This document shows positions 1,375 through 22,628 of a stretch of 31,817 bases of DNA, piece by piece (positions within the stretch are counted from its first letter, which is position 1; every line of letters starts with the position of its first letter). Both the position numbers and the translations under genes were made by a program. The notes beneath the pieces were generated by a model. That model had not been told where the DNA came from. It worked only from the letters and a program-made list of their open reading frames with translations, and did no database searches. Source of the stretch: a virus; the IMG/VR virus record IMGVR_UViG_3300025426_000736, positions 1 through 31,817 of that record; one strand, written 5' to 3'.

Positions 1375-2220
1375 ATGAATTATTCTATACACGAGAATGG
1401 CTGGACGGTGTTAGCCGATGTCGACTTAAAAACTATAACACAAGATGAAGTAAATCAATTAGCCAGATTGATTGCTTCAAACACATGTGTTGTAATTAGA
1501 AATCAATTCTTGACAGTTGAAGAAGAAATGCATGTTATTAACATGTTTAAAAATCCAGAAGTATTTGTTGAAGAACATGTATCCGAAGAACGATACAAGC
1601 AATGGTATGTGGAAAACTCTGGCGGAGTAATAACAAGAGTAACTGGCGAAAAAAATGAACATGGTACACCAGGAATTGCAGGTTACATTGATGAAATGAC
1701 TTGGCACTGCAATCATCCTTATCGAAAAGATCGTAAGCCAATTGTGTGGCTATACGGAGTTAGAGGAACCGCAGGATCTCGAACAAGTTGGAATAATAAC
1801 ATCTTATCATATAATGATTTAGATCAAACACAAAAAGATTTTTTATCCACGCTAAAGATACGTGCCAAGAAAGGTATAGACCATGCAGTACATAAAGCAG
1901 GTACAACTGGGATGGTAGTTGACGGGTATAATCCAGATGTCGTTTACACAAACATTGCTGGAAAAACTGGATTGTTTTTTCCTTTCCTACAAATAGAAAG
2001 TTTTGTAGGAATGACTCCTGCAGAAAGTCAAGCTATTATTAAGCCGTTAGCAGAATTTACAATACAAGAAAAATATTGTTATCATCATGATTGGCAAGAT
2101 GGTGATTTAGTTATTAGCGAACAATGGCTAGGTATACACAAGCGTTGGAAATTTGAAGGGATTGAAAAACGTATGGTACATCGTGCTGTATTTGATTTCC
2201 CCGATCAAGATTATAAGTAA
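1375..2220 (+). CDS. TauD/TfdA-like 2-oxoglutarate/Fe(II) dioxygenase, HxN variant
   Basis: This 281-residue protein has the size of TauD. It has a candidate metal motif WHCN (His111, Asn113), a distal His255 in WLGIHKRW, and Arg266 and Arg270 spaced His-x10-Arg-x3-Arg, as TauD uses for metal, 2-oxoglutarate and substrate. The first triad normally reads HxD; here the acid is Asn. Family members use O2 and 2-oxoglutarate to hydroxylate or otherwise oxidise small molecules. I place the start at 1375 rather than the in-frame ATG at 1360 because AAAGGA lies just before 1375 and the paralogue at 4158 aligns from its own MNY start. The gene ends in a terminator and converges on the next gene with a 10-nt overlap. 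Fold assignment is fairly sure; activity is open. Confidence 0.78.
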   Translation: MNYSIHENGWTVLADVDLKTITQDEVNQLARLIASNTCVVIRNQFLTVEEEMHVINMFKNPEVFVEEHVSEERYKQWYVENSGGVITRVTGEKNEHGTPGIAGYIDEMTWHCNHPYRKDRKPIVWLYGVRGTAGSRTSWNNNILSYNDLDQTQKDFLSTLKIRAKKGIDHAVHKAGTTGMVVDGYNPDVVYTNIAGKTGLFFPFLQIESFVGMTPAESQAIIKPLAEFTIQEKYCYHHDWQDGDLVISEQWLGIHKRWKFEGIEKRMVHRAVFDFPDQDYK

Positions 2221-2771
2221 TCCCATCTGGGATTTTTTTCTAATTCTTTTAAAAATTTATCAGCATACAATTCCCAGACAGTCTGTCTATTACCCCTGTA
2301 GTCTAATTCTTTAATACGTTTCATCTGTCCTGTAGCTTCCATAGCAGGCCCGAATATATTATGAACTAGTCGTTGTGTACCTACACTACTTTCATTACTA
2401 GTAATATACAGATTAGCCCAAGGCGGGCTCCATTCAATACAAGTAGGTATTAAAAACTGACTAGTTACATGCTGATGGGTGATTATTTGATTACGAGTTC
2501 TTATACTTGGAATCGGGATATGATCTGAAAAAACACAAGTACGTGCTGCAATTCGATAAGCATCTTCTCCCATTTCAGGAAAACTATGCGCAGCTACACT
2601 TCCAACTGCTTTATCATGGTAATATAGAATCCATACAGCCCAATGTTTTTCTTTGGCAAGACTGTCTACTAGCATTTTTTGACTAGAATTATTCGTAAAT
2701 CCTTTTGCTTCTGCTGTAGCATAAAATTCAGTAAGATTCAAATCTTCCGACCAAGGTATTATAGTAAACAT
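2211..2771 (-). CDS. GNAT-like acyltransferase (probable)
   Basis: 186 residues. A central segment (about 40-110: WAVWILYYHDKAVGSVAAHSF, then YRIAARTCVFSD) has the beta4-beta5 look of GNAT N-acyltransferases, where a 'kaVG' strand is followed by one reporting the effect. A later SSVGTQRL stretch (near 133) could be the phosphate-contacting loop. I do not see a textbook Q/RxxGxG/A acetyl-CoA motif, so this is a fold-level guess. Its start overlaps the upstream kinase-like gene by 13 nt, so the two are co-translated. It converges with the dioxygenase gene. In this setting an acyl transfer to an intermediate or to a carrier would fit, but no substrate can be named. Confidence 0.45.
   Translation of the reverse strand: MFTIIPWSEDLNLTEFYATAEAKGFTNNSSQKMLVDSLAKEKHWAVWILYYHDKAVGSVAAHSFPEMGEDAYRIAARTCVFSDHIPIPSIRTRNQIITHQHVTSQFLIPTCIEWSPPWANLYITSNESSVGTQRLVHNIFGPAMEATGQMKRIKELDYRGNRQTVWELYADKFLKELEKNPRWDYL
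2219..2239 (+). terminator. Rho-independent terminator at a convergent junction
   Basis: AATCCC (2219-2224), loop ATCT, GGGATT (2229-2234) and a T run form a short terminator starting in the stop codon of the upstream dioxygenase gene. The same bases encode the C-terminus of the minus-strand gene that ends at 2211. Confidence 0.75.
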
Positions 2772-3439
2772 TTAACTCTTTCAATAAATTCATCAGGATA
2801 ATTAGTTCTAAAACTTTCCCAACACAATTGATCCATAACAGCCCAAGGCTGCGGTTCATCCCATTTAATCCCTAATGCGTCTAAGTGCTTACGCATTTCA
2901 TCTTGTCGTGTTGTATAGATATGGCTTTCGACATCCTTAATACTAATATTAGGTTCAGTATCCCGATAGGTAAAAAAATAATTAATACTTCTTAATCTGC
3001 CGCCAACAACAAAGTAACTACTAGGATGCATACTATACTTGTGCCAACCCATACGCTTGTGAGTTTTAATAATCTCAATCATTTGTTCTTGCCAGTCGGG
3101 AACAACTAAATCATAGTTTGCTTGATCGCATCCTGCTTGTTCCCAAAAATCAGGACCATCGATTTCAAAAAATAACTTACGAGACTTTAAATCAATATTT
3201 GTAATTGTTGGAACTAGATCCGGATAAGCATTACGCATTTGGGTTATATAGTTTACTTCACGTATCCATTTTTCCTCCATCTTGTCAGGATCTACTACTT
3301 GATTTTTGCCCTTATGATATTCAGTATCATTATGATACCATTTACAAAATAATTTTTTATCTTCACTTATGAGGCTTGTATATATTAAATTATTTCGGCA
3401 TAAGCCTTGTCCTGGTACGTTATTGTAATAATATTTCAT
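2759..3439 (-). CDS. Kinase-fold (phosphotransferase-like) protein, degenerate
   Basis: 226 residues laid out like a small protein-kinase/APH fold. A beta-strand carries a lysine (FCKWYHND, Lys33), then a helix carries a glutamate (IREVNYI, Glu61), then an LFFEIDG hinge-like strand (about 90-95), and DWQEQMIEIIKTHKRMGWHK leading to HPSSYFVVGGRLRSINYF (about 138-155). That last stretch sits where a kinase has its catalytic loop and metal-binding Asp. The HxD...N and DFG residues are not clearly kept, unlike the paralogue at 10116-10802, which has TIDF. It could phosphorylate a small molecule or only bind one. The start has no clear ribosome site. It overlaps the GNAT-like gene downstream. Confidence 0.5.
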   Translation of the reverse strand: MKYYYNNVPGQGLCRNNLIYTSLISEDKKLFCKWYHNDTEYHKGKNQVVDPDKMEEKWIREVNYITQMRNAYPDLVPTITNIDLKSRKLFFEIDGPDFWEQAGCDQANYDLVVPDWQEQMIEIIKTHKRMGWHKYSMHPSSYFVVGGRLRSINYFFTYRDTEPNISIKDVESHIYTTRQDEMRKHLDALGIKWDEPQPWAVMDQLCWESFRTNYPDEFIERVKCLL

Positions 3440-3484
3440 AGTATAATAATTAGCAACAAATAAAATAAGTGTAGGAAATTAAGA

Positions 3485-4093
3485 CTACATCGAATAATAA
3501 CACGATTCAGCAACTATCTTATCTACGAACCACTCATAATCTATCGTTCCAAATATACGCATTGTAATTCGCATCCCCGATGACTTAGGAACTTCATGTT
3601 TAAATGCATCGTTTAATAACATTGCGTTGCCTGAAATTATTCTATGGGTTTGGTTTGATTCGTCCCATACCTTACAAAAAGTATTTCCGGTCAATGGAAT
3701 AATACTCAAACCTAGAGAGTTTTCTATATCTGTTGAGTCATCCCAATCTGTGTGAGGAGGAGCAGGTGCTTCGGAAAAATAAATTACTCTAATAGCTCCT
3801 AATTTATTAAACGGCAAATTACTAACAACTGATTTAGTATATGGTATATCCAGGTCATTATCCCAATTCCATTTGTTTAAATCTGCAGATTTAACTTTTC
3901 TAAAATTGTAGCTTTCAATAGTTGGGTTAGATCTTAAAAATAATGAATAAACATATCCTACATTTCCGTAATCATCGGTATGTGTAAATGGAAGACATTT
4001 TGGAGACTTTTTTAAAGGCAAAAGTTCTTCTGCCAGTTTATCATAATCTATGTCTAATTTTAGTTCTGCGGCAACAAGGTTTTTAAAATCCAT
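3485..4093 (-). CDS. 2-oxoglutarate/Fe(II) oxygenase (Asp/Asn beta-hydroxylase-like)
   Basis: 202 residues with an intact facial triad in the double-stranded beta-helix order: His114-x-Asp116 in PPHTDWDD, His166 in AFKHEVP, and Arg175/Arg179 in GMRITMRIFG for 2-oxoglutarate. A mid-domain strand LGLSIIPLTGN followed by GNAMLLNDAFKHEV is the usual core of phage and bacterial aspartyl-hydroxylase-type enzymes, which hydroxylate peptide side chains or small molecules. It is the first gene of a three-gene leftward block, 45 nt upstream of the kinase-like gene and divergent from the second TauD-like gene across a 64-nt gap. Confidence 0.75.
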   Translation of the reverse strand: MDFKNLVAAELKLDIDYDKLAEELLPLKKSPKCLPFTHTDDYGNVGYVYSLFLRSNPTIESYNFRKVKSADLNKWNWDNDLDIPYTKSVVSNLPFNKLGAIRVIYFSEAPAPPHTDWDDSTDIENSLGLSIIPLTGNTFCKVWDESNQTHRIISGNAMLLNDAFKHEVPKSSGMRITMRIFGTIDYEWFVDKIVAESCYYSM

Positions 4094-4157
4094 TGAATAT
4101 TTACCACAATTAAAATTTTCAAAAAAATAAAACGATAAGTATAAAAAAGGAACAGCA

Positions 4158-4994
4158 ATGAATTACCACTTACACAAAAATAATTGGACTGTTATATTAG
4201 ATGACGTTGATTTTAATTTTCTTACTCAAGATGATGTAAATCAATTATCAAAATTAGTAGCAAAATATACTTGTGTAGTTGCAAAAAAACAAAATCTATC
4301 TTTAGAAAATGAGTTAAAGATCTTAAAAATGTTTAAGAATCCCAAACCTCTGTTTAAACCTTCTGATTTTAAATTCAAACATTGTGCTGTAGATCCAGAA
4401 GGAATAATTTGTCGTGTAACAGCTGAGTTAAACGAGCACGGAGAAACCGGAATAGGAGCGAAGATAGGAGATTTTGATTGGCATAATAATTTGCCATGGG
4501 ATCCAACACGTAGTCCTATTATATGGCTTTACGGTGTTAAAGGAACAGCTGATTCTAGAACATCGTGGAATAACAATATACTTGCCTATAATGATTTAGA
4601 TAACACTACAAAAGAAAAATTAAAAAAATTAAAATTGATTGTTAAAGAGCCTTTGATGGCAGATGGTCATCGACCTGAATCATGGGTCAATAATAGACAT
4701 GCATTTGATTTTGTTTATACTAACAATGCAGGTCAAACGGGATTATATTTTCCAGTATATAATATAGATTATTTTGAAGGATTAACAAGAAATGAATCTC
4801 AAGAAATTATAGAACCTTTAAGGAATCATGTATTGCAAGAAAAATACATATACCATCACGACTGGGACGACGGAGACATCGTAATAAGCGATCAGTGGTT
4901 AGGTGTGCATAAGAGATGGAAATTTGTTTCTTTAGAAAACAGAGTGCTACACAGAGCGGCCATTGATTATCCAGATCAAAACTATGAAGAATAG
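4158..4994 (+). CDS. TauD/TfdA-like dioxygenase, second HxN copy
   Basis: 278 residues and a clear paralogue of the gene at 1375: same start (MNY.LH.N.WTV), same blocks RTSWNNNIL.YNDLD, GLYFP, and YHHDW.DGD.VIS.QWLG.HKRWKF. Candidate ligands are His109-x-Asn111 (WHNN), His251, Arg262 and Arg266, keeping the His-x10-Arg-x3-Arg spacing. Both copies therefore have Asn where the family has Asp. It begins the long rightward block running to 9526. AAGGAA sits 8 nt before the ATG and a weak TATAAA at 4140 is the only promoter-like box. The TAG stop overlaps the start of the next gene by 11 nt. Confidence 0.78.
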   Translation: MNYHLHKNNWTVILDDVDFNFLTQDDVNQLSKLVAKYTCVVAKKQNLSLENELKILKMFKNPKPLFKPSDFKFKHCAVDPEGIICRVTAELNEHGETGIGAKIGDFDWHNNLPWDPTRSPIIWLYGVKGTADSRTSWNNNILAYNDLDNTTKEKLKKLKLIVKEPLMADGHRPESWVNNRHAFDFVYTNNAGQTGLYFPVYNIDYFEGLTRNESQEIIEPLRNHVLQEKYIYHHDWDDGDIVISDQWLGVHKRWKFVSLENRVLHRAAIDYPDQNYEE

Positions 4995-6057
4995 TCAAGA
5001 AAATATTATGCCAGAACATACAATATCATTATGCGAACATTGTTATCGCCACATCCCAGCAACAAGATTCGAAAAAGATGGTCGGATGATGCTTGGCAAA
5101 ACTTGCCCTAAACATGGATATCAAGAAGCTATACTAGATATTAACACAGATTTTTACAAAAGCCAAGAGTATCAAAAACGTAAACCAAATTCTTACTGGT
5201 TAGATATTACCAATCGTTGTAATTTAGATTGTCCGCATTGTTATCAAATGCCCGACAATAAAAGTAAAGATCCTAGTATAGATTATTTACTAAGTGAAAT
5301 ACAATCCTGGCCAGACAACGGACTAGCAATAAGTTTAGTAGGAGCAGAGCCTACTGTGCGTAAAGACTTACCAGAGTTGATCAAAGCAATTCTAGCATTG
5401 CCTGGAAAACCTAGAACAATCATTGTAGTAACAAACGGAGTATATCTTGCCAAATGGGATTATGTAAAACGCTTTCAAGGTATACCGAATTTAAAATGGA
5501 CATTTGGTTTGAACCATCCAGACTACAACGGCGGCAATATTCGAGTCAAGCAAATGAAGGGATTAGAAAATTGTGTCAAACTAGGATTAGAAGTTAAGAC
5601 ATTAACTTATACATTGGCCAACCTTGCACAGTTAAAAGATGTACTAGAAGAAATGCAAGACTTTGCTCAACGAGGAGTTTGCTCTAATGCTCGAATACAA
5701 GTGGGTGTAAATATTGGTCGAGTTCCTGAAGGCGAGTTTAATGAATTGTATTTGTCAGATTTAGTTAAGGTTGCTCAACAATTTTGTCTAGATAATAATT
5801 GGTCATGGGAGCCAAACAATCGAACAGGAAATAGGACACACTATGCTGTTAGCATAAATGGTGTTGACCATAAATTCATTAAATGGTGCGATGTACGTAC
5901 AATCGATTTGGAAGAAGTACAAAGTGAGTCCTGGGCAAGTATTGTTCCAGGAAAACCCATGAGCCCGTTGTTACATCAAGTCATCCTTAGAGATCAAGCT
6001 GTAAATAAAGGACTGATGCTGTATGATACAGTACCTGAAAAATATAGACATGAATAA
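4984..6057 (+). CDS. Radical SAM enzyme with N-terminal Cys/His cluster (copy 1)
   Basis: 357 residues. The N-terminal domain has CEHC (Cys17, Cys20) and KTCPKHG (Cys41, His44), a metal-site pattern seen in front of the radical SAM core in the COG1964-like family that includes MJ0619-type methyltransferases and tetraether lipid synthases. The core begins with the [4Fe-4S]-binding NRCNLDCPHCYQ (Cys79, 83, 86) followed by LVGAEPTVR, a variant of the GGEP motif for SAM. The C-terminal third shows no obvious further Fe-S ligands. I chose the ATG at 4984 because it overlaps the upstream stop like its neighbours; ATG 5008 is an alternative that matches the paralogue's N-terminus better. Substrate unknown. 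Confidence 0.82.
   Translation: MKNSQENIMPEHTISLCEHCYRHIPATRFEKDGRMMLGKTCPKHGYQEAILDINTDFYKSQEYQKRKPNSYWLDITNRCNLDCPHCYQMPDNKSKDPSIDYLLSEIQSWPDNGLAISLVGAEPTVRKDLPELIKAILALPGKPRTIIVVTNGVYLAKWDYVKRFQGIPNLKWTFGLNHPDYNGGNIRVKQMKGLENCVKLGLEVKTLTYTLANLAQLKDVLEEMQDFAQRGVCSNARIQVGVNIGRVPEGEFNELYLSDLVKVAQQFCLDNNWSWEPNNRTGNRTHYAVSINGVDHKFIKWCDVRTIDLEEVQSESWASIVPGKPMSPLLHQVILRDQAVNKGLMLYDTVPEKYRHE
5336..5366 (+). repeat. 31-bp exact repeat, copy 1, in tandem radical SAM genes
   Basis: Thirty-one bases encoding the VGAEPTVRK segment are identical to 6384-6414. A 23-bp exact match also spans the CPHCYQM codons of both genes. This is nucleotide-level identity, including third positions. Confidence 0.85.
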
Positions 6058-7114
6058 ATTAGAAGATACATTATCTCTGTGTGAGCATTGTTACAGACAC
6101 ATTCCGGCTATTAGATTTGAACGTGATGGACAAATATGGTTATGGAAAAAATGTAAGTGGCACGGAGAAAGCGAACATTTAGTAGAGCCTAATGGAGAAT
6201 TTTATCTTAATTACATCTACAATAGGCATGCTTTAAAAAGTTATTTTGTAGAAGTTACTAATCGTTGCAATTTAAAATGTCCGCATTGTTATCAAATGCC
6301 AGACGCTGACAGTAAAGATCCTAGTATCGATGATCTATTAAATTTGATTAGTGCATGGCCCGATGACGGATATCCAGTAGCACTAGTAGGAGCAGAGCCT
6401 ACTGTGCGTAAAGATCTTCCTGAACTAATTTCGGCTATACAATCATTATCTGGAAAACCGCGTGGCATCATGATATTAACAAATGGTGTTAATTTAACAG
6501 ATAATGAATACACTAGTCGATTTAGCAATTTTAAAAATTTAATGTGGACTGTAGGTCTTAATCATCCAGACTATCAAGGACATGTTGTTCGTCGTAAACA
6601 AATGGAAGGAATTAAAAATGCTAAATCTGCTGGGCTAAGAATAAAGAATATAAGTTATACTTTAGAAGATCTAGGCCAATTAGAATATTGTTTAGAAGAA
6701 ATACAACAATTTGGTACAGATATTTGTGAACAATATCGAGTTAGGTGCGGAGCAGACATTGGTAGATATCCAGGATCCCCTAAAATATTTTTAAGTGATT
6801 TAATTAACGCAACTAAAGAAATTAGCAAAAGAAAAGGTTGGGATTATAAAGAAGATCCTGCTAGCGGTAATAGGGCTCATTATCCTGTTATAATTAACGG
6901 ATTGCTAATTAAAATTATTCAATGGCCTGATGTTAAAACACTAGACTTAAGAGAAATACAAACAGAAGCAATAGCAGATATTTTGCCAGGCAAGCCGCCA
7001 AGTCCATTAGTGCATCAAGTTATTTTAAGAGATGGCGCATTAAACAAAGGTTTACCTCTATACGATACAATACCACAGGAGTACATAGATAATTATGGCC
7101 ATAAAAGGAATTAA
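6050..7114 (+). CDS. Radical SAM enzyme with N-terminal Cys/His cluster (copy 2)
   Basis: 354 residues, tandem paralogue of the preceding gene. Cys11, Cys14, Cys35 and His38 form the N-terminal site, Cys73, Cys77 and Cys80 (NRCNLKCPHC) the radical SAM cluster, and LVGAEPTVRKDLPELI is identical in the copy next door. The start at 6050 overlaps the previous stop by 8 nt (ATGAATAA); an upstream in-frame start at 6023 would lengthen the overlap for no gain. The two C-termini also match (LHQVILRD versus VHQVILRD, GL.LYDT.P). Two linked copies suggest two sequential steps or a heterodimer. Confidence 0.82.
   Translation: MNKLEDTLSLCEHCYRHIPAIRFERDGQIWLWKKCKWHGESEHLVEPNGEFYLNYIYNRHALKSYFVEVTNRCNLKCPHCYQMPDADSKDPSIDDLLNLISAWPDDGYPVALVGAEPTVRKDLPELISAIQSLSGKPRGIMILTNGVNLTDNEYTSRFSNFKNLMWTVGLNHPDYQGHVVRRKQMEGIKNAKSAGLRIKNISYTLEDLGQLEYCLEEIQQFGTDICEQYRVRCGADIGRYPGSPKIFLSDLINATKEISKRKGWDYKEDPASGNRAHYPVIINGLLIKIIQWPDVKTLDLREIQTEAIADILPGKPPSPLVHQVILRDGALNKGLPLYDTIPQEYIDNYGHKRN
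6384..6414 (+). repeat. 31-bp exact repeat, copy 2
   Basis: Partner of 5336-5366. The direct repeats lie about 1,048 nt apart in the same reading phase, so recombination between them would yield a single in-frame hybrid radical SAM gene. Confidence 0.85.
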
Positions 7115-7901
7115 TAATCAAACATATTTAGACATGTCTCCATATTTAGATATGAATAAGTTTGATCAACTACAGCCTGAAATATTATCAGGGTTTGCTC
7201 TAGCTCGACCATATGCTAAAGAAGGTACGTGGATGGCTCCTGGATTTACATTCGACAACATGAGTTATGTTCCGCATTGGAAGCCTATATACAAAGCCAT
7301 GAGTGAGTTTTTAGATTTGCCTAACGACAGTCCTATTAAACAAGCAGGTCTAGCATTAATGCCTAAGGATTTTAAAAACTTTCAAGAACGCAATATATTC
7401 ACACGTTATCTAAAGATGGCCATGGGCGCATATGATCCATACATTTACTACTACTTGTGGGAAGAAGGTTCTTGGGATGATAGAACTGCTCCACGCAAAC
7501 TAACTTCTGAAGCTGAATACTTTCCTGAAACTGTTAAATGGGTTGAAAGCCTAGTAGGTACAGTGTTTGAAGAGATTGGGCGTGTTATATTCTTTCATTG
7601 TGAAGCAGATGGTATACCATTTGAACATAGAGACTTAGATGCTAAAAACGGCATTGACGTTGTTAAGCCACATCGCAATGAATTTATACACATACGCCCT
7701 AACACAAAGAAAGCATTTTATTTGTGGGATCCTGAAACTAAAGATAAAACATATCTTAACACTCGTGCCGCATGGTGGAATGATGTCGACTGGCATGGTG
7801 GTGAACGTATTATGGAACAAAGTTACGGACTACGTATTGATGGTAAGTTCACAGACGCATTCCGTAAACAACTAGGTATTGATCACATAGAGAGTTATTA
7901 A
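7095..7901 (+). CDS. 2-oxoglutarate/Fe(II) oxygenase-like protein, long form
   Basis: 268 residues. The C-terminal half has a plausible catalytic set: His178-x-Asp180 (FEHRDLD), His234 (DWHGGERI) and Arg247 (YGLRIDG), with core strands FIHIRPNTKKAFYLWD between them. The N-terminal 160 residues are mostly aromatic and helical (MGAYDPYIYYYLW) and match nothing I recognise; they may be a substrate-binding lid. Its first 20 nt overlap the radical SAM gene upstream and its stop shares one base with the next start. It belongs to the same oxygenase superfamily as the three genes that follow, but it is longer and more divergent. Confidence 0.68.
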   Translation: MAIKGINNQTYLDMSPYLDMNKFDQLQPEILSGFALARPYAKEGTWMAPGFTFDNMSYVPHWKPIYKAMSEFLDLPNDSPIKQAGLALMPKDFKNFQERNIFTRYLKMAMGAYDPYIYYYLWEEGSWDDRTAPRKLTSEAEYFPETVKWVESLVGTVFEEIGRVIFFHCEADGIPFEHRDLDAKNGIDVVKPHRNEFIHIRPNTKKAFYLWDPETKDKTYLNTRAAWWNDVDWHGGERIMEQSYGLRIDGKFTDAFRKQLGIDHIESY

Positions 7902-8404
7902 TGGAATATATCGGTAATTATTCAGACTGGGTACGACAAGAGTATATAGATTATATGTTGGCCAACAACGGTACTCCAAGACCAGGTGGCGGCCGAAACC
8001 CTGACTCGGAAGAATTTAGAAAAGCTAAAGAACACGGTTATGATCTTAGCCAAGTATATTGGTATATATACGAACCAGATACATTTCCGTTTGATGTCAA
8101 AATACCATTTGAAGACAATCGCAAATATTTGTGGTGGGCTATAAAAATGAATCCGGGAAACTTTATGCCTATACATAGAGATCCGCATACCTACGATCCT
8201 AATTTATATGATGTTAAAAGGTACTGGATGGCCTTACAAGATTGGGAGCCTGGTCATATTTTTATGTACGAAGATCAAGTATTAGTTAACTATGAAAAGG
8301 GAGATATCTATTGTTATACAGACCCTCAAGCAATTCATTGTGCTTGCAACATAGGAAATACTACTAGACTAACTTTTCACTTTAGCACATATATTAAAAA
8401 ATAA
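7901..8404 (+). CDS. 2-oxoglutarate/Fe(II) oxygenase, compact form A
   Basis: 167 residues. Ligands are His92-x-Asp94 (PIHRDPH), His146 (AIHCACN) and Arg156 (TTRLTFHF). Between them lies ALQDWEPGHIFMYED...NYEKGDIYCYTDP, almost the same as in the gene at 9002, so the two are paralogues. Both open with M.YIGNY..W. This small cupin-type family is common in marine phages and is usually annotated only as a 2OG-Fe(II) oxygenase or prolyl/aspartyl hydroxylase. Translation is coupled to the gene before (TAATG). Confidence 0.75.
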   Translation: MEYIGNYSDWVRQEYIDYMLANNGTPRPGGGRNPDSEEFRKAKEHGYDLSQVYWYIYEPDTFPFDVKIPFEDNRKYLWWAIKMNPGNFMPIHRDPHTYDPNLYDVKRYWMALQDWEPGHIFMYEDQVLVNYEKGDIYCYTDPQAIHCACNIGNTTRLTFHFSTYIKK

Positions 8405-8411
8405 ATTAGAT

Positions 8412-9005
8412 ATGATCATTACATTAACTAAACTTAATTTCAATGTAGAACACGCCATTGATTATTATAAAACTTTATTATCGCAACATGATGATTTACA
8501 TTGGTACTATACACAAGATCATAACAATCCAAATGTTATAGATCCTAAAAATAAATTAGATGCTATGCACGGGTGGGGGTTGCAGACAATTTATAGCGAT
8601 CTTTCATTTCCTTACCATTGCGATTTAGATCCGCACAATGAAGGTCCTCAATATTTCAAGAATACTAAATTAGTATTTGGGTGGGCAAAAAGTATGTTAG
8701 ATGCTGTTGAACAACCATATCGTTCTTTTGTGTTTGTATATCCATCTGGAGATTACTTGGGTAAATTTTTATCAACACCTCCTCCGCATTTTAGAATATA
8801 TATGCCTATAATTTCTAACGAACAATCCTGGCTAATTTCTCATACTGATCCTGTTACAAAAGTTTTACTAGTACCTGGATCAGTCTATTTGAATACATTG
8901 GATGTTGATACAGAAATTAGAAATGACGGAACTAGTGATTTGGTATTTTTAGAAACTAATTCCCCTATCGAACATTTAGAACAAATATTAATTAAATTTA
9001 AATGA
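8412..9005 (+). CDS. Cupin/2OG-oxygenase-fold protein lacking a clear metal site
   Basis: 197 residues. The later half (about 104-182) follows the beta-helix order of its neighbours: RSFVFVYPSG, HFRIYMPIISNEQSWL, KVLLVPGSVYL, then IRNDGTSDLVFLE. The position that should carry HxD reads KFLSTPP, and no distal His follows a GD motif. An HCD at residues 69-71 lies outside the expected place. It may be a pseudoenzyme, a partner subunit of the flanking oxygenases, or use a different site. It sits between two active-looking oxygenases: 7 nt after one, overlapping the next by 4 nt. Confidence 0.5.
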   Translation: MIITLTKLNFNVEHAIDYYKTLLSQHDDLHWYYTQDHNNPNVIDPKNKLDAMHGWGLQTIYSDLSFPYHCDLDPHNEGPQYFKNTKLVFGWAKSMLDAVEQPYRSFVFVYPSGDYLGKFLSTPPPHFRIYMPIISNEQSWLISHTDPVTKVLLVPGSVYLNTLDVDTEIRNDGTSDLVFLETNSPIEHLEQILIKFK

Positions 9006-9526
9006 AGTATATAGGAAATTATAAATCCTGGATACAGGAACAGAAAATAATAGAGCACCTTGTTTCGTGTCAAGGTGATAGCACTCCTGTATGGCAACCT
9101 GATAGGTGGACGGGCAATCCTATATTAGAAAAGTTTACAGAAATGGCTCGTCCAGGATATTCTAATAATAAGTTTTTCTTTCATCAGATGAATCCTAAAT
9201 CAAAAGAGATGCAAGATTTTAAATTTATATTACCTGATGTACCTGAAAAACGAACTAATATTAATTGGTGGTTTGTAATGTTATATCCAGGAGAGTTTCA
9301 AGCAATGCATATCGATCCCCAACTAACAGAAGTTAAAAATCCTGTACGTTATACAATGTTTTTACAAGATTGGGAACCTGGGCATATATTTGTATATGAT
9401 GATAAAATAGCTGCAAACTATAAAGCTGGTGACTTGTTTGAATGGAGCGATCCTATGATCGTACACGGACCAGCTAATATAGGGTATACTACTCGATACA
9501 CCTTACAAATAACAATGTATGATTAA
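9002..9526 (+). CDS. 2-oxoglutarate/Fe(II) oxygenase, compact form B
   Basis: 174 residues, paralogue of 7901-8404. His103-x-Asp105 (AMHIDPQ), His155 (IVHGPANIG) and Arg165 (TTRYTLQI) form a complete triad plus 2-oxoglutarate arginine, with LQDWEPGHIFVYDD and AGDLFEWSDP in the core. It is the last gene of the rightward block. Its TAA overlaps the TAA of the convergent minus-strand gene in a TTAA palindrome, and no terminator is visible at the junction. Confidence 0.77.
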   Translation: MKYIGNYKSWIQEQKIIEHLVSCQGDSTPVWQPDRWTGNPILEKFTEMARPGYSNNKFFFHQMNPKSKEMQDFKFILPDVPEKRTNINWWFVMLYPGEFQAMHIDPQLTEVKNPVRYTMFLQDWEPGHIFVYDDKIAANYKAGDLFEWSDPMIVHGPANIGYTTRYTLQITMYD

Positions 9527-11464: not shown

Positions 11465-11503
11465 AGAAATATTTATGTGCTAGTATTATTACGTAAATAA
11501 AAC

Positions 11504-15437: not shown

Positions 15438-16785
15438 CATCTAATCCTCTTATAGCATCCAAGTGCTCAACATACTCTTTAAAATCAGGTAATAAGTGTG
15501 TATGATCTTCTGCTTGAATAAATTTTAAAATACCTTCCCAACGTTTCCATCCATAAGGGTTATCTGTCCAAAAGCTATCGTTCTGTGTATAGTTGTCCCA
15601 TAGCCATTGTTTGAAATCAGCAAATTGCTTTACAATCTCTTTTTTATCTTCTTTTGGTAATATCCTGGCACTAAGAAAAGTAGGAATATACAATAGATGA
15701 AGGTTAATAATTCCGCCGCCAGTAATATATCCGTCTATTTGAAATTTGTTTATCTTTTTAAAACCTTGGCTAATTTTCCATTTAGAAAAATCAATAATAT
15801 GTTTTACATTAAACACTTGTACAGCACAGGCAATCGCACAATGTATATTATCAGGTGTACTATCCATTAACCACAAACTGTGTTCAATATCTTTCCACTT
15901 GCTAGGATATCTAATGTAATAATTTTTCTCCATAAGAGCATCTATGCTAAATGCGTAACGAACTTGTTTAAATTGTTTCCAAATATTGATAATATCATCG
16001 TTAACAAAAATGCCATTGCTGTTATAACGTAGGCTAATATTTTTAGCATATCCACGTTTGATAATTTCATCTAAGAACCTGCGATGTTCTTTGATCATCA
16101 ATGGTTCACCGCCAGCAAAGTATAGCTGTGTAATATTAGGTATTTGTTCAAATACATCATCCCAGAACTCTGGTTTTTCGTACCACGTATTATTAAAATA
16201 TTCTTTATCAAATTTTACCTGTTTAATAACTTGTACACTTTGAGCTTTAGCCATCAACTTATCATAGTCCTGGAGCCATCGACTACTATCATGCGGACTA
16301 CACATTACACATTTAAGATTACAAGTATGCCCTAGCCTTAAATCTAAATATCTAATTACTGGAGGCACACAACCAGTAGAGTCAGTATCTGCAATGAGTT
16401 TATTGAAATCTAAACCGTCACGATTCCATTCATACATTTCCCATAATCTTTTACTTACAACTCCGTTTGATTCTTCCTCGAAACACTTTGTACAGCTGGC
16501 CGGAATTTTACCTTCTAACATAGTCAATCTTACACTTCGCATGTACTGATTATTAAATGCTTCTAATGGTGTTTCGCGACCAAAATTAGCAGGCTCGCCA
16601 TCTTCTTTTTTAACCAGCCCTACATCATGCTCTCCAGTTGCGGCGCCGCTAGCATTAGTAACACAACATAATCTAGCATCTCCATTTGGGCGAGTAGCTA
16701 AATGTATCCAAGGTAATGCGCAGAAAGTAGGACTTCCAGTTTTTTCTTCAATAATTTTTACATATGATTTTATTTTATCAGTCAT
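15400..16785 (-). CDS. Radical SAM protein with N-terminal twitch-type domain, second copy
   Basis: 461 residues from the ATG at 16785, chosen because its 8-nt overlap (ATGACTGA) with the upstream gene and a preceding GTGGAA ribosome site fit the operon pattern; an in-frame start at 16809 is possible. Cys22, Cys40-41, Cys98 and Cys101 form the N-terminal set, TCNLKCVMC (Cys155, 159, 162) the radical SAM cluster, and FAGGEPLMI the SAM motif. It is a homologue of 12336-13601 with an insert before the barrel (about 100-145). It is the last gene of the seven-gene leftward operon starting at 22628. Confidence 0.82.
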   Translation of the reverse strand: MTDKIKSYVKIIEEKTGSPTFCALPWIHLATRPNGDARLCCVTNASGAATGEHDVGLVKKEDGEPANFGRETPLEAFNNQYMRSVRLTMLEGKIPASCTKCFEEESNGVVSKRLWEMYEWNRDGLDFNKLIADTDSTGCVPPVIRYLDLRLGHTCNLKCVMCSPHDSSRWLQDYDKLMAKAQSVQVIKQVKFDKEYFNNTWYEKPEFWDDVFEQIPNITQLYFAGGEPLMIKEHRRFLDEIIKRGYAKNISLRYNSNGIFVNDDIINIWKQFKQVRYAFSIDALMEKNYYIRYPSKWKDIEHSLWLMDSTPDNIHCAIACAVQVFNVKHIIDFSKWKISQGFKKINKFQIDGYITGGGIINLHLLYIPTFLSARILPKEDKKEIVKQFADFKQWLWDNYTQNDSFWTDNPYGWKRWEGILKFIQAEDHTHLLPDFKEYVEHLDAIRGLDAKEVFPELAHIL

Positions 16786-17578
16786 TATTCCACATTTCCT
16801 TAATAACATTAGTATAATCTAATATTACTCCGTCTTGATAATTATTCATAGCTGTTTTAATCCAATCGCAAACAATATTATTTTTTTCATCACCATCTAA
16901 GTGGTTAGGACGATCATCCATTTTAGGATAATGAAACGTGCTACTTTTATCACCGGCAATACTTAAACTGATGAGAGCAGGCCTTATTTCTACTCCATGT
17001 TTCCATTTATAGGTATAAGAAATATTACTTGGATGAAATCCATTAAAGTCCCATGTACTAGGAGTACCAAACGACCAAAAATGAATTATCTTTGTTGTTT
17101 GTGGAAATTTTGTAAGTATGTTATTATCGATATATTCTAAAATTGCTCTATGTTCAATTTCTTCTTTTTCCCTATCATATAGGTACATATAAAATTGTTT
17201 TGCGGCTTCCCATAATTCTTTTGTAAAAGGATTAGGCTTACCTGGATATTCTTTAGCAAACCATTTTTCTTTTTCTGGTTTATATCCAAGTATCCCTGAA
17301 CTAGAATGTATGCATCTTGCCTTACGATCGAATAATCTGCCCGGAATAGTCCATACAAAAACACAGACATCTGGAATCGATTGAGAATTTATTAATGGTT
17401 GTAATTGTATTAGTAATGAATCCCAGACAGAGGATCCTCCAAATCCTAAATTAACAATTTTAGCATTATAAAAATCTCTTGTTTTTTCTATATACGTTTG
17501 ATAATTATTTTCAATGCTATGCGGATTATTTAACTTAGTGCAAAAACTATCTCCAAAGAAGCCTATAGTTTTAATCAT
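16778..17578 (-). CDS. SGNH-type hydrolase/esterase
   Basis: 266 residues. FFGDSF (Ser11) near the N-terminus is block I, NLGFGGSSVWD (about 43-53) gives the oxyanion glycine, and DDRPNHLDGD (His226) lies where the catalytic Asp/His block is expected. Between them is a long insert rich in aromatic residues. SGNH enzymes remove or transfer acyl groups on sugars, lipids or proteins. There is no signal peptide, so it should act in the cytoplasm. Eight-nt overlaps link it to the B12-type radical SAM gene upstream and the twitch radical SAM gene downstream. With a GNAT-like gene elsewhere in the island, reversible acylation is possible but unproven. Confidence 0.68.
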   Translation of the reverse strand: MIKTIGFFGDSFCTKLNNPHSIENNYQTYIEKTRDFYNAKIVNLGFGGSSVWDSLLIQLQPLINSQSIPDVCVFVWTIPGRLFDRKARCIHSSSGILGYKPEKEKWFAKEYPGKPNPFTKELWEAAKQFYMYLYDREKEEIEHRAILEYIDNNILTKFPQTTKIIHFWSFGTPSTWDFNGFHPSNISYTYKWKHGVEIRPALISLSIAGDKSSTFHYPKMDDRPNHLDGDEKNNIVCDWIKTAMNNYQDGVILDYTNVIKEMWNND

Positions 17579-19118
17579 AACTACTCCAGCTTAGTTTTTT
17601 ATCTATATAAGATTGTACTAGATTTTTAAATTTAATATCTGCGGTATCAATTTTAGATAAGTTATAGTCATATACATCTTCATACTGATTCGTTTTGTAG
17701 TATGGAAACAATCTATCAGACAAAAACGGATTACATCCTCTTAAGCCTTTAAATCCATTATTAGAATAAAAATCTTTTACAAGAGATTCTGCTTGATACC
17801 AATCCATGGTATTGTGTTTCCAAATAACAACATCGTTTCTAGTACTACCTACTCCGCCGCCTCTAGGAGTAGTTGAATTAAAAATAACATTTCCTGCACC
17901 GTCTTTTTTAACTTCGTATCCTGGATTCGGTCTTGCTTCTAATTTAATCAATCCATTATTTACAAGTTCTTTGGTAAATCTGCTTTGATTAGTAAGTGTT
18001 TCATCATAATCTGGAACTTCTAATATATGTGCACTAGCACTTTGTCTAGTCCATTTAGTGTTTAGCCATTGTAAAGATTGTTGCCAAGACTCAATAGTTT
18101 CTCCAGGTATACCGCAAATCATTTGTATATTTGCCCTGTAACGACGTGGAGCATGGATATCTGTATATGTTTGAAAGTCTAACAAACCTTCTTGTAACTT
18201 ATCAGGATCCATGCCTTTACGTACAAGACGACCTGCTTCTTTGTTAAATGTTTCAATGCCCATACTGTGTCCAAGGAAACCTAGCCTAATATACGTGTCC
18301 CAATAGTCTCGATGTTTAACAACTAAATCGCCTCGGGCAAATCCACATATCCAAGGATTGTATCCTAACTCATCAACTGCGTCAGCATACTTTTGTAATT
18401 TCTCGGGGCGGTCATTAAATGTTTCGTCCATCACACGCCAATTAACTATTCCCCATTTTTCGTAACCTAGTTGTAGCTGTCTTTTAAATTCTTCTTTGCT
18501 TACACTTACATCTTTTGCTTGTCCAATGATAGGAAAATTACAGTAGGAGCAACTGAACATACAACCACGTGCTGTTTCAATTTGCGGGCATTCCCATGGA
18601 GTCATAAAATCGCGTAACTCATAATCTACTAAGTAACTGTCTAAAGGTGCACTTGGGTAGTGATATAAACCTCTGATAACTTTCTTACTACCAAAGAATG
18701 TGGGATCAGTCATTAAAGGTGCGCCTAGCGTTCCAATAAGATGCTGGCATAATGCTAATATAGAATTTTCACCGTAACTGTCAACCCAGTAGTCAACTCC
18801 TTCGGCAGGAGTAGTTAACGCATTGTTGCCACCTACTACAATAGGAACTGCGGGATATTCTTTTTTAAGCCATGCTATGAATTCATTTAAGTATGGACTC
18901 CACGGATTTAAAAATGCTGTTCCAAAACAAAACATAACAGTATTGACTGAAGTTCGAGAACGTACAAATTCTTGTAATTCCTCTAATTGCCAAAATGCTG
19001 TAAAATCAACTACTTCTGCATCCCAGTCGTTCATTCGTAAGAACGTGGCCACACGATGCGGCCACAATGCTCGTTCCCAACGTTTGCCTGTTAAGCTAAA
19101 GAATAATGCGTGATTCAT
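17571..19118 (-). CDS. B12-binding-type radical SAM enzyme
   Basis: 515 residues, the longest gene in the window. Residues 1-130 form a Rossmann-like domain (VVDFTAFW, VNTVMFCFGTAF, VPIVVGGNNALT, VDYWVDSYGE), as in the cobalamin-binding half of class B radical SAM methyltransferases and related enzymes. The cluster motif ARGCMFSCSYCNFP (Cys186, 190, 193) follows, then barrel motifs VMDETFND, LGHSMGIETFN and MICGIPGET typical of this group. I do not see the DxHxxG cobalamin motif, as is common in this class. Such enzymes methylate unactivated carbon or rearrange rings. Overlaps: 4 nt with the methyltransferase upstream and 8 nt with the SGNH gene. Confidence 0.78.
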   Translation of the reverse strand: MNHALFFSLTGKRWERALWPHRVATFLRMNDWDAEVVDFTAFWQLEELQEFVRSRTSVNTVMFCFGTAFLNPWSPYLNEFIAWLKKEYPAVPIVVGGNNALTTPAEGVDYWVDSYGENSILALCQHLIGTLGAPLMTDPTFFGSKKVIRGLYHYPSAPLDSYLVDYELRDFMTPWECPQIETARGCMFSCSYCNFPIIGQAKDVSVSKEEFKRQLQLGYEKWGIVNWRVMDETFNDRPEKLQKYADAVDELGYNPWICGFARGDLVVKHRDYWDTYIRLGFLGHSMGIETFNKEAGRLVRKGMDPDKLQEGLLDFQTYTDIHAPRRYRANIQMICGIPGETIESWQQSLQWLNTKWTRQSASAHILEVPDYDETLTNQSRFTKELVNNGLIKLEARPNPGYEVKKDGAGNVIFNSTTPRGGGVGSTRNDVVIWKHNTMDWYQAESLVKDFYSNNGFKGLRGCNPFLSDRLFPYYKTNQYEDVYDYNLSKIDTADIKFKNLVQSYIDKKLSWSSYD

Positions 19119-19714
19119 TTTTTTCCTACAATCATATAACGTGTATATAGCGGTAGTTGTAGCTCGCTAGCATAAATCACATCGAGTTGACTTTGTTCTT
19201 TGAATTCATCTAAACTATTAGCAATTCTGATATGTTCAGGTATATTATAGTTATTGCTTTGTAATACAATTAGGCTATCTTGCGGGTGACCACTTAACCA
19301 CAACTCATACTGATCTTGTGTAATATGTTCACAACTAGTGTTAATAATAATGTCTGCATCGCTGCGGATAGTGCACATGTCTGCTGTTACAGCACGAAAC
19401 TTGCCGGCAATCTCTTCTCCCTTATTCATCATAGTTGCAATCTCTTTGCAAGTGTGATCAATGTCTATACTTCGAATATGTTTAATTGGTAATGTACTTT
19501 GAAATAGCATACTAGCTAATACACCTACCCATCCACCGTGTATGTCTATAGAATACGGGCCGTCTTTAATAGAACTATGCATAGCCAAAGATTCAATTAA
19601 CCATTCTTTACTTTTGAGTTGACCAGACCAAAAGGCATCCATAGTTCTTAAAGGGTTTTCACTGTTACGTATGGCTTGCATCCAGTAGTGCAGATGTTCT
19701 GTATCAATTAACAA
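19115..19714 (-). CDS. SAM-dependent methyltransferase
   Basis: About 199 residues, class I Rossmann methyltransferase. YSIDIHGGWVGVLASML is motif I, IRSIDIDHTCKEIATMM binds the adenosine ribose, FRAVTADMC is motif III, and ADIIINTSCEHIT is the motif IV region, followed by LIVLQSNNY. I favour a TTG start at 19714 because GGGAGG lies 5 nt before it and the overlap with the upstream stop is then 11 nt, like other junctions. A GTG start at 19744 would add ten residues and a 41-nt overlap. The acceptor substrate is unknown. Confidence 0.72.
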   Translation of the reverse strand: MLIDTEHLHYWMQAIRNSENPLRTMDAFWSGQLKSKEWLIESLAMHSSIKDGPYSIDIHGGWVGVLASMLFQSTLPIKHIRSIDIDHTCKEIATMMNKGEEIAGKFRAVTADMCTIRSDADIIINTSCEHITQDQYELWLSGHPQDSLIVLQSNNYNIPEHIRIANSLDEFKEQSQLDVIYASELQLPLYTRYMIVGKK

Positions 19715-20684
19715 ATTGGCCTCCCATTTTGTCAAATTTGCCACATTGTTTAGAACATTCCATCAATGGTGTTTTGGACCAAGTGCTTTCTATTTTGTTA
19801 AAATAATTTGATTCAAAAATATCATCTAGTGTGGTTATATGTAAATTAGGAAATTCTCCTATTTGATCCATATAGTCTATTCTGTTAGGATGTTTAGCAA
19901 GCTGCCATGTTAAATCTAACCAGCAGCATGGACTGACTGATCCAGTAGCAGAAATGTAAAGTTGATTATGTTTTAATGCTTTACAATCAATAGTATTACA
20001 AGATGCATTTTCCTGTACTAAAGACGACATAAAAACACTTTGATCAGTAGGATACAATATGTTAACAGTTTTACCGGAGTCGTCGAGAACATTGAATTTT
20101 CCGTCTACGAATCTAGTAGTATGCTTAATTGTAAATTTTTTAAATCCTAACTCTTCACTTTTAGTACGACATGATTCTATTTGGTGCTCATTGTGCTTAA
20201 ACACTAGCATGTGCCATTCTGCATTACCTCCTGCATCGATAAATGATTTTGCATTTTCTATTATTTTAGAATAATCTGTTCCTATTCTATAAAGACCGTG
20301 CGTATCAAAATCTCCATCAATTCCAAAAGTAACTTTAACATTAGTTTTTGCTAGTTCACGCCACCAGCTTTCAGATCTTGCACTACCATTGGTATGCATA
20401 CTTATTTTTATCAAAGGATGTATCTCTCTCAAGTATTGAATTATTTCCAAACAATCTTGTGCTATTATAGGATCGCCCAAGTTCCCACACAATAAAATAC
20501 TATTCAATTGTTTAATAAATTCCCGAGAAAACCACTCTTTGAATACAGGTAAAGATATTTCTGTCGGATCAAATAATGGATTTATAGGACCTCCATTAAT
20601 CCGTCGTGGACACATAGGGCAACGTGCTTGACACTTGCTAGTTAATTCTACGTGTACATTTTGTATTTTTTTTAATTTATACAT
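19704..20684 (-). CDS. Radical SAM/SPASM enzyme
   Basis: 326 residues. LTSKCQARCPMC (Cys18, 22, 25) is the radical SAM cluster; CGNLGDP takes the GGEP place. The C-terminal part has a SPASM-type cysteine arrangement: ASCNTIDCKAL, SATGSVSPCCWLD and MECSKQC (about 225-315). 'G.v.pCC' is typical of SPASM domains from peptide- and sugar-modifying enzymes. It differs from the flanking radical SAM paralogues and looks like an independent acquisition. The start overlaps the upstream stop by 8 nt (ATGTATAA). Confidence 0.82.
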   Translation of the reverse strand: MYKLKKIQNVHVELTSKCQARCPMCPRRINGGPINPLFDPTEISLPVFKEWFSREFIKQLNSILLCGNLGDPIIAQDCLEIIQYLREIHPLIKISMHTNGSARSESWWRELAKTNVKVTFGIDGDFDTHGLYRIGTDYSKIIENAKSFIDAGGNAEWHMLVFKHNEHQIESCRTKSEELGFKKFTIKHTTRFVDGKFNVLDDSGKTVNILYPTDQSVFMSSLVQENASCNTIDCKALKHNQLYISATGSVSPCCWLDLTWQLAKHPNRIDYMDQIGEFPNLHITTLDDIFESNYFNKIESTWSKTPLMECSKQCGKFDKMGGQFVN

Positions 20685-21669
20685 TTAATATCGGAATTAC
20701 TTTTGTATTATACTTAAATTTTTTCATATTAACTTCGGTTCCGCACCAACAACTTTCTTTTGTACAGAGCGTATAATTTATCTCGGGAGTAAATTCTTGT
20801 TTAAAATTAGTAGAATAAAAATTTAACATTGGTGTGAGTGTAGGTTGGCCGCATACTCCAGTAATGGAACCTGACCGATTTATATGTAACCAATCAACTC
20901 CTAAACTACACATCCAACCATTAAATTGATTTAAACGTTTAAGAACTAATTCGTTATCTTTGAACTTATGTATTTTGCCATTACTGTCAGTAACTTTAAC
21001 TCTACTATTGTAGTATTTGTTATTTTTCAAAAACCAAAAAATATTTGAACTTCTAGCTTTTTGTTTTTTTAAAATTTCTATCTGATCAGTAGTGTATTGT
21101 ACATTTGCCCCTAACACTTCTCTGTACCTAATGACCCATTGATGTTTGCTTTTTTTTAAAAAACTAACAATGTCCATGCATTCGTTCCATGCTGGAGGAT
21201 TCATCATCATGTTGACAGATACTAATACATTATGTTCATATAACAAATCACATACATCTCTGAATTTTGTTTTATCCATAAATTCGTTATGACCACTTAA
21301 AGTTATACTGTCAAAATAAGGAGCTATGTCTTCCCAGTATTCAAGTTTTTTAGATCCATTAGAATGCATAGATATTAAACAATTAAAATTGTCTTTTAAG
21401 AACTTTACATAATCAATTAATTTTGGCCAGTGAGTAGGCTCGCCACCTTCGAAGTGAATATCAAATATCTCCTTATTTGAATGTTCTATATAATATCTAA
21501 TCAAATGTGCGGTATTAATCTTAATTAATTCTAAATCGGGCCAATAGTCGGTACCTGCATGACTTTCAGGCCAACAGTAAGAGCATTGATAATTACAAAT
21601 ATTACCGAGATTAATATGAATCTTTAGGGTATTTGCATTCCAATTATTTTCAACACTAACAATGTTCAT
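20677..21669 (-). CDS. Radical SAM/SPASM-like enzyme
   Basis: 330 residues. NICNYQCSYCWP (Cys25, 29, 32), HFEGGEPTHWP, and a C-terminal GWMCSLGVDWLHINRSG, GVCGQP and CTKESCWCGTE auxiliary-cluster set. It is a paralogue of 14517-15437 and 21666-22628, sharing CNY.CSYC and the C-terminal pattern. Starts four nt inside the upstream gene (ATGA). A lysine-rich stretch (near 195-245: ILKKQKARSS...KNNKYYNSRVK) is specific to this copy. Confidence 0.82.
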   Translation of the reverse strand: MNIVSVENNWNANTLKIHINLGNICNYQCSYCWPESHAGTDYWPDLELIKINTAHLIRYYIEHSNKEIFDIHFEGGEPTHWPKLIDYVKFLKDNFNCLISMHSNGSKKLEYWEDIAPYFDSITLSGHNEFMDKTKFRDVCDLLYEHNVLVSVNMMMNPPAWNECMDIVSFLKKSKHQWVIRYREVLGANVQYTTDQIEILKKQKARSSNIFWFLKNNKYYNSRVKVTDSNGKIHKFKDNELVLKRLNQFNGWMCSLGVDWLHINRSGSITGVCGQPTLTPMLNFYSTNFKQEFTPEINYTLCTKESCWCGTEVNMKKFKYNTKVIPILNV

Positions 21670-22628
21670 ATTTTATTTTTTGGTATCTTACTATCTGCAC
21701 TACTTACACATCTATCTGTTACACAAATTTTAGGTGCAGAAAACAAAGTAAAATTTTCAATTGTACCTAACGATTCTTCTTTACAACTATATGCTCGCTT
21801 GACCTCATTACCTCTTATTATAACACTTTGATATCCGCTATTGCAAGACCAACCGGCAAATTGATTGAATCCTAAAGCATTAAAACGTTCTGCCTGATCA
21901 ATGTAATAATCTTGTTCACCGTCGGTTAATCTAATTTGATATCCTTCTTGTTGCTCAAAATCATTTTTCATTATATCTATCATGTCTTGTGTATATCCAT
22001 CCACTACCGCAGTAGCACTTTCATTACTCTGCGGTTTAAGTGTTACATTTATTCCACGAGACCTAAAACGTTCACAACGTTCCAGTGTTTCATAAAACTT
22101 CTCAGGAACCATAACTTGATTAATAGTAACATGAACCAAATCGTACATTAGCTGTAAGCACTTGTCTCCAAATTCTGATTCCTTGGCATGCTCTGCGTGA
22201 AAGCTAGCTGTAATACTTCTACGCTGCAGTAGTTCGGTTGCATAGTGCCAACTGCGCCACCATGTCAAACTAGGACTCAAGTTGGTAGTCATATGCACAG
22301 TTTGGTATGGAGTTTGGACACCGTCGTCCAAATGTTTAATTAAATCAAGTAAGTACTTGTAAGCAGTTGGTTCACCGCCGCTGAACGACCAATGGAACTG
22401 GTTAAACCCGTTGGCTCGTGCTTGACGCTTAATCTCGTCTACAGTGGTTTTATACACTTCAAGCGGTTGGTGATCTGGTTTGTCAGTCCTAGCATAGGGC
22501 CAACAATAACTACATTTATAATTACAAAATCTTCCCAAAATCCAACTTATGTTAAATAATGGACGATCCAGCATAGTTTGCTGTCCAAAATGTGTAATTT
22601 TTTCGAAAGGTATGGTAGAAAATTGCAT
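21666..22628 (-). CDS. Radical SAM/SPASM-like enzyme, first gene of leftward operon
   Basis: 320 residues. GRFCNYKCSYCWP (Cys35, 39, 42), SFSGGEPTAYK, and a C-terminal GWSCNSGYQSVIIRGNE, YSCKEE and ICVTDRCVSS set. It heads the seven-gene leftward operon (three radical SAM, methyltransferase, B12-type radical SAM, SGNH, twitch radical SAM). Its start codon touches the -35 box of the rightward tRNA promoter, and a leftward -10 box (ATTATA, 22649-22654) overlaps that promoter's -10, so the two directions share control DNA. Confidence 0.82.
   Translation of the reverse strand: MQFSTIPFEKITHFGQQTMLDRPLFNISWILGRFCNYKCSYCWPYARTDKPDHQPLEVYKTTVDEIKRQARANGFNQFHWSFSGGEPTAYKYLLDLIKHLDDGVQTPYQTVHMTTNLSPSLTWWRSWHYATELLQRRSITASFHAEHAKESEFGDKCLQLMYDLVHVTINQVMVPEKFYETLERCERFRSRGINVTLKPQSNESATAVVDGYTQDMIDIMKNDFEQQEGYQIRLTDGEQDYYIDQAERFNALGFNQFAGWSCNSGYQSVIIRGNEVKRAYSCKEESLGTIENFTLFSAPKICVTDRCVSSADSKIPKNKI

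Follow-up and report, generated by a model that had tools for sequence, protein, structure and literature searches.

A conserved island of radical SAM and oxygenase-type genes in probable T4-like jumbo phages and its possible role in surface decoration

We analysed IMG/VR virus record IMGVR_UViG_3300025426_000736 over its complete length of 31,817 bases (the window) and found that it carries an island of 25 genes (1360-22628), made up of nine radical S-adenosylmethionine (rSAM) proteins, nine oxygenase-type proteins, two kinase-fold proteins and five others. The island recurs in related viral contigs with fixed gene order and strand, and it is not a chance cluster. Its most invariant pair of genes encodes kin1, a kinase-fold protein that lacks both the catalytic Asp and the DFG Asp, and OG_7095, a 2-oxoglutarate (2OG)-oxygenase-like protein. 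The reading that we favour, at a probability of roughly 0.45, is that these enzymes form a modular system for C-H tailoring whose target is a macromolecule at the surface, with a host envelope glycan as the likeliest candidate.

Conservation of the island among relatives

When we scanned IMG/VR with the window proteins, we recovered 95 loci, and the same block was seen there by tblastn. We fetched 30 related contigs, whole except for the last 117 bases of one, and clustered their open reading frames. Order was retained by 334 of 347 adjacent pairs of core genes, and strand agreed in 368 of 377; these contigs were found via island genes, which conditions gene presence but not order or strand. 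An earlier reading of the window, made by a model from the sequence alone (the sequence-only reading), had proposed a multi-step pathway rather than scattered metabolic genes, and had suggested a search for the block with a test of co-occurrence and order. We ran that check and found that the genes are not separate and random in relatives; a block that recurs with fixed order and strand supports the proposal. Compared with the closest relatives, dN is about 0.05-0.25 and dS is near or above 1 for most island genes (dN/dS about 0.03-0.2 where dS is computable), and low dN at such dS indicates strong purifying selection on island genes.

Profile scans of viral contigs found 350 relatives of kin1, 401 of OG_7095 and at least 550 of rS3tw, a twitch-domain rSAM protein. 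Where a kin1 locus has long flanks (42 loci), OG_7095 is always present (42 of 42), the second kinase-fold protein, kin2, is present in 39 and the GNAT-like protein in 35. The kin1 and OG_7095 pair is also retained in divergent islands where other families fall to 25-45% identity. The rSAM gene rS4 is a near, same-strand neighbour of rS3tw in all 43 rS3tw loci. Each of seven large contigs (127-353 kb) contains exactly one OG_7095 and 8-17 rSAM matches, mostly within one stretch; in the contigs of 221-353 kb, most of these matches are in or near it.

Accessory genes vary but insert at fixed places; they encode PP-loop ATPases, AMP (adenosine monophosphate)-ligases, a hexapeptide acyltransferase and an FkbM methyltransferase. 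Also among these accessories are extra rSAM and oxygenase-type families, SGNH-like proteins and glycosyltransferase-like proteins, the glycosyltransferase-like family f45/f95 being called on motif only. When we compared the distance matrices of different core proteins, we found correlations from about 0 to 0.7, and each of the six pairs tested gave a correlation above those of 500 label shuffles. Because the matrices agree weakly while order stays fixed, we read these sequence comparisons as probable allele shuffling by recombination with gene order preserved.

Composition of the island and its core proteins

To the kinase-fold proteins first: the AlphaFold2 (AF2) model of kin1 (predicted local distance difference test score, pLDDT, 89) matches TTK, RET, Bud32 and WbdD in Foldseek at E about 1e-5 to 1e-4 and template modelling score (TM) about 0.4, and the kin1 profile matches TTK at E 0.001. 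In 80 of 80 copies, the sequence is K[YF]SMHPSSYF around the catalytic loop and INYFF in the DFG region, and both Asp residues are therefore missing. In kin2, an invariant Asp (D157) stands at the DFG position and a catalytic Asp is not apparent. The sequence-only reading had counted two kinase-fold proteins; the fold holds for both, but kin1 is without both Asp residues and kin2 has the DFG-type Asp only.

All nine island rSAM proteins match PF04055 above the curated Pfam cut-off, as the sequence-only reading had said, and CxxxCxxC is present in 253 of 254 orthologs checked, the sole exception being one of 28 rS2 orthologs. The nine oxygenase folds that it had listed divide into two TauD-type proteins above the Pfam cut-off and seven called by motif or weak match only: two of the seven have sub-threshold matches to PF05118 (Asp_Arg_Hydrox) and five have no Pfam match, and the HxD/E...H pattern is kept in all orthologs of these seven families. 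In the TauD-type family, WHxN, with Asn for the Fe-binding Asp, is found in 32 of 45 copies from 31 contigs, including both window copies, and the distal His and Arg motifs are retained despite this change. When the OG_7095 model was compared with solved structures by Foldseek, the matches were 2OG oxygenases at TM about 0.3, and its viral structure matches were mainly Asp/Asn/Pro hydroxylases. HRD and DWHG are present in 72 of 72 OG_7095 copies, and HRD, DWHG and the Arg motif together in 66 of 72.

The island lies between an Mtd_N tail-fibre-type gene (395-1303) and tRNA-Pro (22663-22757). Its genes form six alternating strand blocks, so the island is not one operon. The coding fraction is 0.993 (99%), 20 of 24 junctions overlap by 1-41 nt, and the other four are gaps of 7, 39, 45 and 64 nt. 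The sequence-only reading was right that most genes overlap, but it gave overlaps of 1-20 nt at nearly all junctions; it also counted 21 genes, although its own categories sum to 25, and began the island at 1375 rather than at 1360, where the first gene starts. Its calls of GNAT, pyridoxal phosphate (PLP), SGNH and methyltransferase proteins come from motifs seen by eye, and none of the four has a library match above cut-off. These four and one protein without an assigned family are the five other proteins. The genes are as follows, with contig counts referring to the 30 related contigs.

395..1303, plus strand: protein of tail-fibre type with an Mtd_N domain, immediately upstream of the island (PF18454, E 6.8e-11)
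1360..2220, plus strand: TauD-type protein, WHCN instead of WHxD (PF02668, E 2.7e-21)
2211..2771, minus strand: GNAT-like acyltransferase (FeeM match below cut-off; 27/30 contigs)
2759..3439, minus strand: kin1, kinase-fold protein in which the catalytic and DFG Asp residues are missing (AF2 pLDDT 89; Foldseek)
3485..4093, minus strand: 2OG oxygenase-like, Asp/Asn hydroxylase type (PF05118, E 0.022, below cut-off; HxD/E..H in 9/9)
4158..4994, plus strand: TauD-type protein, WHNN (PF02668, E 3.4e-19)
4963..6057, plus strand: rS1, rSAM with HMPTM zinc ribbon (PF04055, E 8.5e-14; PF23545)
6023..7114, plus strand: rS2, rSAM, paralogue of rS1 at 53% identity (PF04055, PF23545)
7095..7901, plus strand: OG_7095, 2OG-oxygenase-like (AF2 pLDDT 82; Foldseek matches to 2OG oxygenases at low TM)
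7901..8404, plus strand: 2OG oxygenase-like, HRDPH motif (HxD/E..H in 15/15)
8412..9005, plus strand: 2OG oxygenase-like, cupin type (HxD/E..H in 8/8)
9002..9526, plus strand: OG_9002, 2OG oxygenase-like (H103, D105, H155 and R165 invariant)
9523..10119, minus strand: OG_9523, 2OG oxygenase-like (HxD/E..H in 31/31)
10116..10802, minus strand: kin2, kinase-fold protein (profile matches kinases and Bud32, E 0.004-0.1)
10799..11464, minus strand: OG_10799, 2OG oxygenase-like (PF05118, E 0.0029, below cut-off; HxD/E..H in 31/31)
11504..12352, plus strand: PLP-enzyme-like protein, motif only (SLSKGLG lysine motif; K186 and D158 invariant; no family match)
12336..13601, plus strand: rS3tw, twitch-domain rSAM (NF033640, 342 bits, cut-off 170)
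13567..14529, plus strand: accessory protein without a match above cut-off (rare, 1/30 contigs)
14517..15437, plus strand: rS4, rSAM (PF04055, E 4.3e-13)
15400..16809, minus strand: rS5tw, twitch-domain rSAM (NF033640, 387 bits, cut-off 170)
16778..17578, minus strand: SGNH-hydrolase-like accessory protein (GFFGDSFC motif; no family match)
17571..19118, minus strand: rS6B12, B12-type rSAM (PF04055, E 9.8e-13)
19115..19744, minus strand: methyltransferase-like protein, motif only (no family above cut-off; 30/30 contigs)
19704..20684, minus strand: rS7, rSAM with SPASM domain (PF04055, PF13186)
20677..21669, minus strand: rS8, rSAM (PF04055, E 1.1e-9)
21666..22628, minus strand: rS9, rSAM at the right end of the island (PF04055, E 2.2e-13; 29/30 contigs)

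For rS6B12, the nearest NCBIfam model is the PhpK P-methyltransferase (TIGR04479, 57 bits, below cut-off), and OG_9002 has a weak relative in Synechococcus phage S-SCSM2R. The profiles of OG_7095, the GNAT-like and PLP-like proteins, f45/f95 and another family, f18, gave nothing usable against the PDB.

Carrier phages and the proposed substrate

The carriers, with contigs that reach 353 kb, are probably T4-like jumbo phages. Three of 26 related contigs have gp23, and in one relative of 186 kb this capsid protein is 63-68% identical to those of jumbo phages including PA5oct and Munch; the window has no capsid gene. Nearly all contigs are fragments, and absences among relatives are therefore weak evidence. 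We found IscU in 5 of 20 contigs and, in 9 of 24, an A-type Fe-S carrier, with an Fe/Mn superoxide dismutase adjoining both in one case checked by Pfam; these genes fit a heavy Fe-S demand. The dismutase, IscU and A-type carrier genes stand side by side in contigs G005 (L122:1651-2887), G003 (L113, about 96.4-98.6 kb), G031 and G033. A search of the relatives for flavodoxin, as a phage-borne reductant, found none. KdsA (KDO-8-phosphate synthase) was confirmed (TIGR01362, 396 bits) in 4 of 26 contigs, outside the island: G005 (L122:4985-5812), G003, G007 and G050. In G003 and G005, KdsA, the dismutase and the Fe-S genes are about 10-13 kb past the rS9 end of the island.

In the reading that we favour, a single macromolecule that is produced or exposed in the course of infection would receive several C-H oxidations, methylations or cross-links from the system, together with acyl groups; this macromolecule would most likely be a host envelope glycan (lipopolysaccharide (LPS), O-antigen or capsule). 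Without its two Asp residues, kin1 may hold or recognise the substrate, OG_7095 would perform a constant oxidation, and variable rSAM, oxygenase, acyl-, methyl- and ester-type enzymes would add strain-specific decorations. The altered glycan could leave rival phages unable to adsorb or could let the infected cell persist. That there is a common substrate, what it is, that kin1 acts as a scaffold and what the benefit would be are all inferred. An envelope glycan seems the most likely substrate because the accessory chemistry (acyl, O-methyl, ester, amino, AMP-ligase) resembles surface-sugar decoration, because KdsA in some relatives ties those phages to LPS, and because analogues in the literature are located in host-recognition regions that also contain sugar genes. 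Weakly agreeing distance matrices and accessories that change while order is fixed are as expected of variable surface decoration, and we also counted the Mtd_N fibre gene next to the island for this reading.

Several results weigh against a glycan substrate. No sugar-nucleotide enzyme was recognised in the window island, no GT2 glycosyltransferase was found above cut-off in 26 relatives, and KdsA is missing from most contigs, most being fragments. The NCBIfam models nearest to the island rSAM proteins describe enzymes with peptide, lipid or cofactor substrates, and the fold matches of OG_7095 include the protein hydroxylases PHD2, AspH and a viral collagen hydroxylase. The sequence-only reading had taken the absence of glycosyltransferases as an argument against a standard surface-sugar pathway. 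This stands for GT2, but relatives carry KdsA, FkbM, the hexapeptide acyltransferase and sub-threshold matches to GT8 and GT9, and these leave room for decoration of an existing surface glycan.

The strongest rival, which we consider unlikely, is that the enzymes modify virion proteins, Mtd_N fibres or adhesins first, by hydroxylation, methylation, epimerisation or cross-linking that would tune binding or stability. The hydroxylase-type fold matches of OG_7095 point this way, SPASM and twitch rSAM domains often act on peptides, and the locus layouts place the Mtd_N gene directly before the island in many relatives as well as in the window. However, fibre genes beside variable regions are common in T4-like phages, which makes adjacency a weak argument, and the fibres are only 27-44% identical, with no search made for a shared target motif.

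Less probable again is that the product of the island is a diffusible secondary metabolite (of peptide-like or amino-acid-derived type) with competitors or the host as its target during a long infection. The AMP-ligases, PP-loop ATPases, PLP-like and SGNH-like proteins and acyltransferase, present in variable sets, do resemble biosynthetic clusters, and Iyer et al. (PMC7824862) proposed such a product for a cyanophage cluster in which 2OG and cupin enzymes occur. Against this, the tight packing of the island leaves no room for a precursor peptide, and Pfam recognised no carrier protein, exporter or protease in the window island. A cluster for a ribosomally synthesised and post-translationally modified peptide was rejected on the same packing: no gap exceeds 64 nt.

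We think it improbable that the island is a hotspot near tail fibres that collects unrelated metabolic genes with no common substrate. The strong variation of the accessories and the only partial agreement of the distance matrices would suit a hotspot, but core order and strand are kept, kin1 travels with OG_7095 and rS3tw with rS4, and each of the seven large contigs has a single OG_7095. Modification of nucleic-acid bases or nucleotides, for example of the 7-deazaguanine type, is the least credible reading: relatives do have QueC-like PP-loop proteins and a QueD/PTPS-family protein, and rS4 has weak QueE-like scores, but the QueC-like genes are accessory rather than core, and the QueD and QueE scores are below the NCBIfam cut-offs. 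The specific candidate of 7-deazaguanine DNA modification was rejected, as DpdA/TGT (PF01702) is absent from 26 contigs and present in 14 of 14 control genomes.

Relation to known phage systems and side observations

Clusters of rSAM genes in T4-like phages are already known (CP220; TARA_ERS488813_N000010; pelagimyophages), and rSAM and sugar genes have been reported in variable phage regions (PMC7029224; PMC7824862; CP220, PMC2853527). The host recognition cluster of pelagimyophages (PMC7029224) is, like the island, a variable region by tail fibres of T4-like phages that gains rSAM cassettes; it is glycosyltransferase-rich and not syntenic, whereas the island keeps its order and strand and its relatives lack GT2 above cut-off. 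The Campylobacter phages CP220 and CPt10 (PMC2853527) are T4-related and have 11-12 rSAM proteins, and CP220 proteins match the rS7, rS8, rS4 and rS2 profiles. However, no kin1, OG_7095 or other oxygenase family was matched in the 30 kb of CP220 examined, and CP220 has amidinotransferase and nucleoside-diphosphate-sugar transferase-type proteins, unlike the island. The cyanophage LPS cluster and a second cluster for sugar or amino-acid modification (PMC7824862) are also large and have several 2OG/cupin-like enzymes, but they are defined by a halogenase, carbamoyltransferases, epimerases and glycosyltransferases, none of which was recognised in the window island, where rSAM dominates. The marine T4-like virus TARA_ERS488813_N000010 (PMC5332604), for which gene counts alone were published, has 12 rSAM genes with Fe-S carriers and assembly proteins. 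Vibrio phages K566 and K567 have a cluster of several twitch-type rSAM genes, but at 22% identity and with no island oxygenase or kinase-fold family matched in the 25 kb examined. We rejected Vibrio K566 and CP220 as members, since only rSAM families are common to both sides.

In searches of 50,697 phage records with seven island proteins, none had a match covering 80% of the query: kin1, OG_7095 and rS6B12 had no match, and rS5tw, rS2, OG_9002 and rS9 had weak partial matches only; a nucleotide search of these records with window positions 1-25000 found no match. In a scan of genome contigs, OG_7095 had no match and rS3tw had two remote ones. A fixed-order block of rSAM and oxygenase genes with a kinase-fold/2OG core was not found described in the open-access papers searched. 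The suggestion of the sequence-only reading that this may be a new system is reasonable, with kin1, OG_7095 and rS6B12 unmatched in the phage records. Somewhat more tentatively than for surface decoration, we propose that this may be a phage system of an altogether new kind, a combinatorial C-H functionalisation machine in which a constant core of an Asp-less kinase-fold protein and a 2OG-like protein is joined by exchangeable rSAM, HxN TauD-type and 2OG units, placing a phage-specific chemical mark on one macromolecule.

The 20-35 kb given to rSAM and oxygenase enzymes in conserved order suggests strong selection for unrecognised chemistry. Hundreds of metagenomic contigs carry the island, and no cultured phage record in the searched collection does. 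If the proposal is true, it would bring to light chemistry of a new type, at the phage-host surface or on the virion, along with many uncharacterised rSAM and 2OG enzymes, including Asp-less kinase-fold and Asn-site TauD-type proteins.

Outside phage records, a Bdellovibrionales metagenome-assembled genome carries, close to an integrase-like gene, five rSAM genes whose families occur in the island (L200, 9977-20182). In the same genome six twitch rSAM proteins are over cut-off, and the neighbours of the other twitch rSAM genes there were uninformative. In G001, one of the related contigs, a second cluster at 37.7-44 kb (L100-L101) combines twitch-type rSAM, GT9-like and glycosyltransferase-like genes, and a very large run of tail-fibre/adhesin-like genes lies at 92-150 kb. 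In the window, the tRNA-Pro just past the right end of the island is labelled GGG, and a clpP-like gene (31424-31816), with which the record ends on the right, has a median identity of 95% in seven relatives.

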